This document shows positions 20,765 through 25,810 of a stretch of 64,000 nucleotides of DNA, piece after piece. Within the stretch, counting starts at the first letter, position 1, and every line of letters begins with the position of its first letter. A model generated the notes under the pieces. It worked only from the letters and a program-made list of their open reading frames with translations. It searched no databases and had not been told where the DNA came from. The translations under genes and the position numbers were made by a program. This DNA is from Klebsiella sp. BIGb0138 (GTDB lineage Bacteria; Pseudomonadota; Gammaproteobacteria; Enterobacterales; Enterobacteriaceae): assembly GCF_004342285.1 (NCBI RefSeq), contig NZ_SMCV01000008.1, positions 62,001-126,000 of the forward strand, given 5' to 3'.

Positions 20765-21018
20765 TTATATCCTATGAGCCTGCCAGCGAGCGGCGGCGAC
20801 AACCGCCTGACCGAATGCGGTTGCCCCATCTCCGGCAGGCAACCGCTGCGGAAATAGCAGAGTAAAATCCGCCAGATAAAACGTCAATCGGGAGACCAGC
20901 AGCCGGTTGTGCAGCACCCCGCCGCCGCTAAAGGCCAGGGTCGCGATCCCGCGCGCGGTGGCGCAATCGCGAGCCATCGCAGCCAGCCCGCAGGCCAGAC
21001 CCAGCTCTCCGTCGCGCC
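20765..21018 (-). pseudogene. hypF: hypF 3' fragment
   Basis: About 84 codons of the C terminus of carbamoyltransferase HypF, recognisable by [35 protein letters not shown] and [11 protein letters not shown]. Intact HypF is about 750 residues and makes the CN ligands of [NiFe]-hydrogenases, so nearly nine tenths of the gene is missing. It is joined out of frame to the start of hydN. No start codon or acylphosphatase, zinc-finger or YrdC region is left. Confidence 0.85.
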
Positions 21019-21087
21019 AGGGCAGGCGACCACGCAGGATTTGCAACCGATGCATTTACTGGCGTCGGCGATAATGAAACGGTTCAT
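21019..21087 (-). pseudogene. hydN: hydN 5' fragment
   Basis: The first 23 codons resemble HydN, an iron-sulfur electron carrier linked to formate dehydrogenase [16 protein letters not shown] followed by KSCVVACP. In E. coli HydN the first cysteine cluster is followed by a second, similar CIGCKTCVVACP, so the fragment looks like the start of cluster one fused to the end of a later cluster, then to hypF. A GGAG ribosome-binding site is retained. Reading on from it gives a 67-residue nonsense fusion. Confidence 0.75.
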
Positions 21088-21183
21088 CCATTTCTCCAGC
21101 AGTAAGAAGGTTACGCCGCGGAGGAGGCATAATACGTTCCATTTTTTATCACAATGATAATAAAGGAGATTAACCAGCTAAGT

Positions 21184-21213
21184 TCTGTCATCGTCACATC
21201 TGACGATGACAGA
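21184..21213. terminator. 13-bp inverted repeat after ascG
   Basis: A perfect 13-bp stem (TCTGTCATCGTCA/TGACGATGACAGA) with a 4-nt loop lies 8 nt after the ascG stop. No uridine run follows on either strand, so it may be a weak terminator or an mRNA-stabilising hairpin; a protein-binding site is possible. Confidence 0.45.
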
Positions 21214-21221
21214 TGACGATG

Positions 21222-22235
21222 TCAGGCGAAGGGGCCTGCGGCTATCGAGTCACGTTCAATCAGCTCGCCGGGGAAGGTTTGCTGGTATTTTAGATCGCCG
21301 CCGTCGAGCATAAAGATCAGCCGGTTAATGCTCTCTTTGATCATTTCCGTCACCGGTATTTTGACGCTGGAGAGCGCCGGGACCATATAGGGCGCCAGCA
21401 CGATATCATCGAAGCCAATCACCGACACCTGCTCCGGCACCTTCACGCCGTGCTGATGCAGCTGCTTCATCGCGCCAATCGCCATGTCGTCGTTGCTCGC
21501 CACCAGCGCGCTGAAGCGGGCGTTACGCTGACGCAGGGTTTCAACCCCGGCGGCGCCGGTTTCCGGCGTCCATTTCCCTTCAACAATCAGCTCGTTATTG
21601 AGCGTAATCCCGTGCTGCGTCAGCGCATCTTTGTAGCCGGAGAGACGCTCAATGCCGGTGGGAGAATCCAGCGAGCCGGTAATAAACGCGATGTCGCGAT
21701 GACCGTGAGTAATGAGTTTCTCCACCGCCGCAAAGGCCGAGGCTTTTTGATCGGACCAGACGCAGTGGCTGGCGTTGCGCCGCAGGCGCCGGTTAAGCAC
21801 CATAATCGGCTGCGACTGATTCTCGACGATCGCGTCCATCTCATCGACGCTAAGAAAGCGCGGGTAGATGATAATCGCATCGCAGCGCAGATCGAGCAGG
21901 TACTGAATCGCCTCGCGCTCCTCCTGTGCGCTGTGCTTACCATCGGCCAGAATCAGCTGCCGCCCCTTGTCTTCGGTCATCCGCGCGACGTGAAACAGCA
22001 GCTCGCTAAAATAGACCCCGTGATAGAGGGTGTTCGTCACCACCAGTCCCAGGGTCTGGCTCTTTTTGGTGGCGAGGTTGCGGGCCAGCAGATTAGGCCG
22101 GTAGCCGCTTTCCGCCACCGCCTGGAACACGCGATCTTTCGTCTCCTGGCTGACATAGCCGTTGCCCGACAGCACCCGGGAAACGGTCGCCTTCGACACT
22201 CCCGCGCGTTTCGCCACCTCCAGCATCGTTGCCAT
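21222..22235 (-). CDS. ascG: LacI-family repressor of the asc operon
   Basis: A 337-residue LacI/GalR regulator with N-terminal helix-turn-helix (MLEVAKRAGVSKATVSRVLSG) and a periplasmic-binding-protein-like effector domain. It represses ascFB, used for salicin, arbutin and cellobiose. The start MATMLEV at 22235 matches E. coli AscG in length; the 14 additional codons upstream are not supported. It is divergent from ascF with an operator between. Confidence 0.94.
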   Translation of the reverse strand: MATMLEVAKRAGVSKATVSRVLSGNGYVSQETKDRVFQAVAESGYRPNLLARNLATKKSQTLGLVVTNTLYHGVYFSELLFHVARMTEDKGRQLILADGKHSAQEEREAIQYLLDLRCDAIIIYPRFLSVDEMDAIVENQSQPIMVLNRRLRRNASHCVWSDQKASAFAAVEKLITHGHRDIAFITGSLDSPTGIERLSGYKDALTQHGITLNNELIVEGKWTPETGAAGVETLRQRNARFSALVASNDDMAIGAMKQLHQHGVKVPEQVSVIGFDDIVLAPYMVPALSSVKIPVTEMIKESINRLIFMLDGGDLKYQQTFPGELIERDSIAAGPFA

Positions 22236-23943: not shown

Positions 23944-23972
23944 ACACTATTGAATTGAAATTGAGGTAACGC

Positions 23973-25397
23973 ATGTCGACTTTTCCACAGGGATTTTTAT
24001 GGGGTGGCGCTATCGCCGCCAACCAGGCTGAAGGCGCCTGGCGGGAAGGCGGTAAAGGGTTGACCACCGTTGATACGATCCCCCACGGCGCGAACCGGAT
24101 GCCGGTTAAGCTGGGGCTGGAGAAGCGTTTTCAGCTGCGGGAAGATGAGTTTTACCCGAGCCACGAGGCGATCGATTTCTATCATCGTTATCAAGAAGAT
24201 ATTGCCCTGATGGCGGAGATGGGCTTTAGCGTGTTCCGCACCTCCATCGCCTGGAGCCGCCTGTACCCGAACGGCGACGAGCTGCAGCCCAACCCGGAAG
24301 GTATCGCCTTCTATCGGGCACTGTTCGCGGAGTGCAAAAAGCACGGCATCGAGCCGCTGGTCACCCTGTGCCACTTCGACGTCCCGATGCATCTGGTCAC
24401 CGAATACGGCTCCTGGCGCAATCGTAAGATGGTAGAGTTCTTTACCCGCTACGCCCGTACCTGTTTTGAAGCCTTCGACGGGTTGGTGAAATACTGGCTG
24501 ACCTTTAATGAAATCAACATCATGCTGCATAGTCCGTTCTCCGGCGCCGGGCTGGTGTTTGAAGAGGGTGAGAATCAGGAGCAGGTGAAATACCAGGCTG
24601 CGCACCACGAACTGGTGGCCAGCGCGCTGGCGACCAAAATCGCCCATGAGGTGAACCCGCAAAACCAGGTGGGCTGTATGCTGGCGGGCGGCAATTTCTA
24701 CCCTTACTCCTGTAAGCCGGAGGATGTGTGGATGGCGCTGGAGAAAGATCGCGAAAACCTGTTCTTTATCGACGTCCAGGCGCGCGGCGCCTACCCGGTA
24801 TGGGCGGCGCGGGTATTCCGCGAAAAAGGGGTCACCATTGCCAAAGCGCCGGGCGATGACGAGATCCTGAAAAATACCGTCGATTTCGTCTCTTTCAGCT
24901 ATTACGCCTCGCGCTGCGCTTCGGCGGAGATGAACGCCAGCAATACCAACGCGGCTAATATCGTCAAATCGTTGAAGAACCCGCATATTCAGGCCAGCGA
25001 ATGGGGCTGGGGCATTGATCCGCTCGGCCTGCGTATCACCATGAATATGATGTATGACCGCTATCAGAAGCCGCTGTTCCTCGTGGAAAACGGCCTCGGC
25101 GCCCGGGATGAGATCGACGCCAACGGCGAGATTAACGATGATTACCGCATTAGCTATCTGCGCGAGCATATTAAAGCGATGCGCGACGCCATCGAAGACG
25201 GTATTCCAGTGCTGGGCTACACCAGCTGGGGCTGCATCGATCTGGTTTCCGCCTCAACCGGCGAGATGAGCAAGCGCTACGGCTTTATCTACGTTGACCG
25301 CGACGATGCCGGCCGCGGCACCCTTGCGCGCAAACGTAAGAAGTCGTTCTGGTGGTACAAGAAGGTGATTGCCAGCAACGGCGAGGATCTGGCGTAA
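23973..25397 (+). CDS. ascB: 6-phospho-beta-glucosidase
   Basis: A 474-residue cytosolic family 1 glycosidase that splits phosphorylated aryl-beta-glucosides and cellobiose 6-phosphate imported by AscF. The acid/base Glu is in LTFNEINIM (about residue 176) and the nucleophile Glu in [11 protein letters not shown] (about 370). It begins with [16 protein letters not shown] as in the family. The gene is intact, in contrast to the broken genes on both sides of the asc operon. Confidence 0.96.
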
Positions 25398-25406
25398 GGG
25401 CACCAT

Positions 25407-25442
25407 CCCCGTAGCCCGGCTAAGCGTCAGCGCGGGCCGGGG
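25407..25442. repeat. REP-type palindromic element
   Basis: CCCCGTAGCCCGG...GCGGGCCGGGG forms an imperfect GC-rich hairpin right after ascB. The stop codon of the hycI remnant lies inside it. Confidence 0.5.
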
Positions 25443-25810
25443 AAACCCGTCTCCGCCGCCGCTTCCAGCGGCGCGAAGCCGCCCTGTTCCTGCCAGGCGC
25501 GCAACGCGCGGTAAACCTCTTCGACGGCCGCGTTAACCGGTTCGGTCAGCGGGTAATAAAAACACGATATCCGGCTGAATGCCTAAAAAAATCACCGCGC
25601 CCACGTCCTCTTTCAACTGATCGATCAGATAGTTAAGCGGCATATTGTGGGTAGTCAGCATAAACATCTCCGCAATATCGTCCGGGTCGATAAGGCGGAT
25701 TTCGCCGGGGGTTAAGTCCCATATCGGTGGCATCGACGATCGGCAGGCGCTCGGGACGCAGCTCGCGGATCGCCACGATATCGTTTTCCGGGGCGCTGCC
25801 GCCGTCAATC
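25427..25810 (-). pseudogene. hycI: hycI remnant (hydrogenase 3 maturation protease)
   Basis: The three minus-strand frames together give HycI from IDGGSAPENDIVAIREL through DLTPGEIRLIDPDDIAEMF, TTHNMPLNYLIDQLKED and FLGIQPDIV to a normal C terminus. One additional C in a run of five (near 25710) causes a +1 shift, and two missing bases after IQPDIV (near 25560) cause a second shift. About 36 N-terminal codons, with the start and first active-site region, are absent. The intact protease clips the C terminus of the hydrogenase 3 large subunit HycE. No other hyc gene follows. Confidence 0.88.

Follow-up and report, generated by a model that had tools for sequence, protein, structure and literature searches.

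A formate hydrogenlyase locus probably lost by deletions on both sides of an intact asc operon in Klebsiella sp. BIGb0138

Introduction

In Escherichia coli K-12 the genes for formate hydrogenlyase-1 lie in the order hypF-hydN-ascGFB-hycI..hycA-hypABCDE-fhlA. In Klebsiella sp. BIGb0138 a stretch of 64,000 nucleotides from contig NZ_SMCV01000008.1 (the window) has only fragments of hypF, hydN, hycI and fhlA from this locus, in the same order and on the same strands, around an asc operon that is complete. The reading developed here, in which we have good confidence, is that formate hydrogenlyase (FHL) was once present, was lost by deletions on the strain's own branch, and that the rest of the system has since been decaying under relaxed selection. 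The strain is a clear, scarred case of FHL loss in a genus where 18 of the 19 other genomes show a complete run from hycI to fhlA.

Results

Remnants of the locus

Contig C8, in whose interior the window lies, belongs to a genome (G000) of 5.60 Mb in 32 contigs, with completeness 100 and contamination 0.78. The window was analysed by tblastn with E. coli K-12 proteins as queries and through its own reading frames. The gene order is srlR, gutQ, norR, norV, norW, a NixA-type permease, the hypF piece, the hydN piece and the asc operon, followed by the hycI remnant, the fhlA tail, mop, sitABCD, ygbA, a haem-uptake-like cluster and mutS (coordinates in Table 1). That nixA, mop and sitABCD adjoin the locus distinguishes it from that of E. 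coli; the permease holds the same position in relatives.

An initial annotation of this DNA had described hypF and hydN as one short chimera. They are a fusion of 0.3 kb, in which HydN residues 1-22 match 21087-21022 (-) and HypF matches 20998-20768 (-), in two different frames. The same annotation had hycI frameshifted and cut at its N-terminus, and its coding remains are found in three frames, changing near 25715/25708 and 25563/25561, with residues 1-36 absent. It was right as well that the asc operon is untouched, all three genes being full length, and that the molbindin gene (mop) and sitABCD come next before ygbA. At an E value of 0.01, no match in the window was obtained for hycH, hycG, hycF, hycE, hycD, hycC, hycA or hypA-hypE; hycB matches nothing but the hydN cysteine motif, and for fhlA the sole long match is norR. 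The claim that everything from hycH to fhlA is missing is correct for the genes hycH to hypE, but the last 16 codons of fhlA persist, so that the scar, placed with its edge at 25810 when this tail was overlooked, reaches 25866. The broken pieces sit in the ancestral order, as pseudogene remnants of a decayed locus would. A sigma-70 promoter scan of 19600-26700 gave 2 sites where 3.2 are expected.

Table 1. Features of the scarred locus and of the cysteine-type fdhF remnant (window coordinates unless a locus is named)
Feature	Position	Strand	Evidence or remark
nixA-type nickel/cobalt permease, intact, adjoins hypF remnant	19749..20762	-	TIGR00802 385.7 bits, above cut-off
hypF remnant, E. coli residues 672-747	20768..20998	-	tblastn; TIGR00143 47.3 bits, cut-off 466.1
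hydN remnant, gene start with first cysteine motif, merging into sequence that resembles the second	20999..21087	-	
Sigma-54-like promoter of hydN, GG-N10-GC kept	21127..21141	-	three unique changes nearby
Palindrome CGTCA-N4-TGACG, presumed FhlA site	21192..21205	.	inferred
ascG repressor, intact	21222..22277	-	tblastn, 78% identity, full length
ascF phosphotransferase system (PTS) IIBC, intact	22501..23943	+	NF007311 985.4 bits, above cut-off; 90% identity
ascB 6-phospho-beta-glucosidase, intact	23973..25397	+	NF007356 1059.9 bits, above cut-off; 88% identity
hycI remnant, residue 37 onward, two frame changes	25451..25809	-	tblastn, three frames
Junction of 13.6-kb deletion	25810..25816	.	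alignment to relatives
fhlA tail, final 16 codons plus stop	25816..25866	+	alignment to relatives
mop, two molybdenum-pterin binding domains	25905..26333	+	TIGR00638, two stretches
sitABCD-type metal ATP-binding cassette (ABC) transporter, old right-hand neighbour	26573..29992	+	19/19 relatives
Cysteine-type fdhF wreck	L142:9063-9525 (G000 contig C9)		two deletions relative to L143, upstream palindrome kept

Junctions and ancestral state

The relatives used are the 19 other genomes of the same GTDB genus, from all of which the stretches around hypD were taken. On the left, window positions 21240-21022 align with the hydN leader and gene start of the relatives, 21054-21007 align also with the DNA of the second hydN cysteine motif, and from 20998 downwards the alignment runs through the hypF end into the first part of nixA. 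Measured on G009, about 2.5 kb (4738 to 2265) are missing here. The simplest reading of this alignment is that one deletion occurred between the two similar cysteine-motif stretches of hydN and a second extended into hypF, while a single complex event could also have left such a scar. On the right, where close relatives serve as reference, homology to hycI ends at about 25810 and homology to fhlA begins at 25816. The deletion, which removed 13,606 bases by comparison with G009 and 13,611 with G003, joins a hycI cut in its middle to the final 16 codons of fhlA. Chance similarity is excluded, because the DNA on either side of the two junctions aligns with the hydN/hypF and the hycI/fhlA of relatives.

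The run from hycI to fhlA is complete in 18 of the 19 relatives, and in the remaining one, G008, the contig ends inside hypD. Linkage of hypF, hydN, ascGFB and hycI is seen in 17, and contig ends interrupt it in G008 and G012. A HypD sequence and a [NiFe] large subunit (PF00374) are found in 19 of the 20 genomes of the genus, the present strain having neither. G008 was considered as another case of loss within the genus and ruled out: its hypD stops at the contig end, and HycE and HypF lie on another contig. In the search of relatives, HypC was not found in the G008 genome. Similarly, the idea that mop-sitABCD is an insertion that replaced the hyc genes was discarded, as sitABCD lies downstream of fhlA in all 19 relatives, in some with about 10 kb between, and a full-length mop stands beside fhlA in nine of them (a partial one in G018). 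In G004, G011 and G018, in L018 and L004 and in other relatives, the gap of about 10 kb between fhlA and sitABCD carries an ascB-like and an ascG-like gene, both absent in the present strain.

A relatedness tree from nine genes places the strain beside G003, G009 and G012. Because all three of these sisters keep the complete run, the tree assigns the loss to the strain's own branch. The breakpoint comparison that had been proposed thus confirms that the region was lost, and the possibility that would have spoken against it, a locus that never held the genes, is contradicted both by the relatives and by the remnants in place.

Absence of a second copy

The initial annotation expected no hydrogen from formate unless a second copy exists, and a search of the whole genome gave no second hyc, hyp or fhlA. 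HypD, HypC, the HypF zinc finger and the PF00374 large subunit are all without a match in the genome. When the hycI-hypD DNA of G009 was used as query, only the hycI remnant and one match of 111 bases were returned, and the latter falls within a HycG-like gene (46%) next to a NuoCD-like one. The hypE-fhlA DNA found the scar tail, stretches of 65-67% identity resembling ATPase domains (one of them norR), and short weak matches. HypA and HypB, covered by the former query, and HypE, covered by the latter, had no match, in DNA searches only. The single PF00346 match was rejected as HycE, the 602-residue frame being 26% identical to it and adjacent to a NuoF-like frame; it is presumably NuoCD.

For hycE and hypB-E the outcome is therefore absence, and for fhlA the tail only, while the selenocysteine fdhF is intact. 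HycE and the other hyc products, HypC, HypD, HypF and FhlA are all wanting for a functional formate hydrogenlyase-1, and only formate dehydrogenase H (FDH-H), the selenocysteine FdhF, is available. From the lack of HypC, HypD, HypF, a [NiFe] large subunit and any second hyc or fhlA copy, it is predicted that the strain does not make hydrogen from formate through FHL. Urease is present, which fits the retention of the nickel permease.

Two formate dehydrogenases

A cysteine-type paralogue of FdhF, 65-68% identical to the E. coli protein, is full length in 18 of the 19 relatives (not in G002). In the present strain only pieces of it are left, at residues ~164-211 and 605-716, on contig C9. The selenocysteine fdhF is full length (C7:220149-222290, one TGA, 93% identity to E. 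coli, TIGR01591 1055.5 bits) and its 714 codons are read without a frame change, whereas the hycI, hypF and hydN remnants, though short, have several length changes.

Rates were expressed as pairwise ratios of amino-acid to synonymous change (dN/dS) and, in a relative-rate comparison with the sisters G003 and G009, and with G012 where present, as excess amino-acid change (dN). For each gene, genomes without a full-length frame were left out, and G008 was excluded from the dN/dS counts for its long branch in the tree and an ascB match that is another gene; for fdhF this gave 16 genomes, 15 once G008 was removed. The fdhF of the strain has a dN/dS of 0.042, against a median of 0.029, a level reached by one of 14 relatives. 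For excess dN the gene gives 0.0045 (-0.0014 to 0.0115), an interval that overlaps the 0.0285 (0.0045 to 0.0549) of the pooled remnants. There are hints of continued selection on the selenocysteine fdhF, but with overlapping intervals the loss may be too young for a distinction.

In G012 and G018 no selenocysteine fdhF match is listed, though cysteine-type fdhF and HycE are present; either gaps in draft assemblies or a natural swap of FDH-H type would give this pattern. In G016 (C1:5771048-5773188) the selenocysteine gene is in two overlapping pieces in different frames, and may be frame-broken or misassembled.

A common palindrome and promoter

The palindrome upstream of hydN occurs 18 times in 794 kb of hyc-locus stretches, once each in the present strain and in 17 relatives, always on the hydN side of asc; by chance 0.11 would be expected in a 64-kb window. 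It recurs upstream of the selenocysteine fdhF in E. coli, in the strain and in the three relatives scanned. Upstream of the cysteine-type fdhF it is seen both in the wreck and in the six relatives scanned, where a GG-N10-GC promoter accompanies it. In the hyc locus of E. coli it is seen only with one mismatch, 8 times in 38 kb, one of these between hydN and ascG. The promoter calls use the spacing of sigma-54 promoters. Palindrome and promoter are thus common to the hydN unit and both fdhF genes, as in a regulon, and from its position, together with the regulation in E. coli, we infer the palindrome to be a putative FhlA site. On that reading the strain has three broken units under FhlA control, FhlA itself included. 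The palindrome with its sigma-54-like promoter, the fhlA tail and the wrecked cysteine-type fdhF are new relative to the initial annotation.

Near the hydN promoter are three changes that are unique among 18 leaders of the genus, located at its edge or up to 14 bases downstream. With three unique changes in the 55 bases before the start, this leader is second to that of G006 (five), and 13 of the 18 have none. The fdhF promoter of the strain has one change, in the -24 box, at a column invariant in the other sequences of the genus; the other 16 fdhF promoters have from 0 to 5 such changes each.

Discussion

Decay or selection

To account for the two scars, consider an ancestor near the Raoultella planticola group, in a genus that includes Klebsiella, with the order norW-nixA-hypF-hydN-ascGFB-hycI..hycA-hypABCDE-fhlA-mop-sitABCD. 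One deletion of about 13.6 kb would have run from hycI into the end of fhlA, hycI also taking two frame changes, and the left-hand loss of about 2.5 kb, reaching from hydN into hypF, would probably have taken two steps, of which one fell between the similar cysteine-motif stretches of hydN. Once HycE or its maturation was gone, the Hyp proteins, HycI and HydN-HypF would have had no client and would decay under relaxed selection; asc, nixA (nickel still being needed by urease), mop and sit would be retained, and the cysteine-type fdhF would have decayed too. In this scheme the number and order of events, their neutrality and the cause of the first hit are presumptive. HycE is the only PF00374 protein in 18 of the 19 relatives (G006 has a second), and it follows that a first hit would leave the other hydrogenase genes without a client and free to decay neutrally. 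Measured against the relatives, the hycI remnant has a median dN/dS of 0.152, a value that none of the 18 relatives reaches over these codons. Its excess dN is 0.042 (0.007 to 0.079), and the excess of the pooled remnants, given above, likewise speaks for relaxed selection. The loss looks late on the branch.

The initial annotation took the two separate losses to suggest selection against hydrogenase 3. Such selection, for instance in an oxic or respiratory niche, would have removed genes on both sides of asc. That several units of one pathway are gone is in line with this, as are the 19 of 80 named loci without hypF beside norW (some may carry the genes elsewhere) and the finding of HypD in 182 of 392 genomes of the family, a sample that includes very reduced genomes, which makes loss or absence common. 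But asc lies between hydN and hycI, so loss of the full locus with asc kept needs deletions on both sides; its position explains the double look of such losses. Moreover, one missing component renders the rest useless, 19 of the 20 genomes of the genus retain a HypD sequence and HycE, and passages of PMC4340222 report a benefit of FHL for acetoin-producing enterobacteria. Recurrence of the loss in other genera fits selection and neutral decay alike. That there were two events adds nothing to the case for selection, which appears improbable as the cause, and ordinary gene decay is the best reading.

Several points weigh against decay after deletion as told here or limit the rates behind it. The hypF remnant by itself has no sign of relaxed constraint, its excess dN being -0.0044 (-0.0399 to 0.0303). 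An excess is also found in nixA, 0.0112 (0.0013 to 0.0232), and in sitD, 0.0183 (0.0061 to 0.0340), and a deficit in ascG and sitB, so that single-gene values of such size are not decisive. Selection favouring the loss is compatible with the data, and the loss is seen in one genome of the species only. An assembly error is very unlikely: although this is a draft in 32 contigs, and although in a congener (G008) a contig ends inside hypD, an artefact or contamination is hardly credible where the junctions are interior to C8, the quality values are as given above, hycI has frame changes, hydN-hypF was destroyed separately and the cysteine-type fdhF is wrecked on another contig. That the lineage never held the genes and imported the fragments is equally far-fetched, with the hydN start, hypF end, hycI and fhlA tail in correct order, strand and neighbourhood and the strain nested among genomes with the complete run.

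If gene decay removed most of the FhlA/sigma-54 regulon while FDH-H stayed under selection, formate electrons might flow to an acceptor other than hydrogen, without HycB and HydN and under another activator; this is a tentative proposal, to which we give rather less than even credence. On the evidence of E. coli mutants, passages of PMC6004506 argue that acceptors other than hydrogen receive electrons from FDH-H by way of HydN and YsaA; the present strain has no HydN. A paper on reductive uric acid breakdown (PMC12507026) mentions formate and AegA, with fdhF not named in the passages available. The strain is in any case a natural setting for studying the role of FDH-H where hydrogenase 3 is absent.

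Comparison with other losses

The 80 named loci around norV (L numbers) gave Raoultella planticola as the best NorV match, at 96% protein identity. The best norVW DNA identity is 88.7%, and therefore none of them looks conspecific with the strain. Three of the 19 that lack hypF have a complete asc operon directly after norW (L047, L060 and L079). In Enterobacter sp. BIGb0383 (L047), HypD is found elsewhere in the genome. HypD is absent from two of the eight genomes behind the chosen loci, those of Phytobacter massiliensis (L060) and Enterobacter sp. kpr-6 (L079), where the order is norW, ascGFB, ygbA with no hypF or hydN beside asc. Unlike the present strain with its visible scars, these two gave no hydN, hypF or hycI fragment at an E value of 0.05. 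In L007 and L015, hypF is in several overlapping pieces, possibly frame-broken or a sequencing error.

E. coli BL21(DE3) is reported to have no FHL activity (PMC3149613). Shigella, also reported without the activity, as predicted here, is said in a passage of PMC4340222 to retain the genes for FDH-H and hydrogenase 3, the latter lost in this strain. Among the literature matches listed, no title or opening of an abstract describes an FHL loss of this kind, and no paper was found that joins any two of formate hydrogenlyase, Raoultella and gas from glucose.

Neighbouring genes

On the far side of the nor genes, at window 6384-8713 (-), lies another set of metal ABC transporter genes, with 27-35% identity to SitA-D. 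The haem-uptake-like cluster between ygbA and mutS (window 31008-36364) is present in relatives too, and its frames are those of a TonB receptor and HmuS-, HmuT- and HmuU-like proteins.

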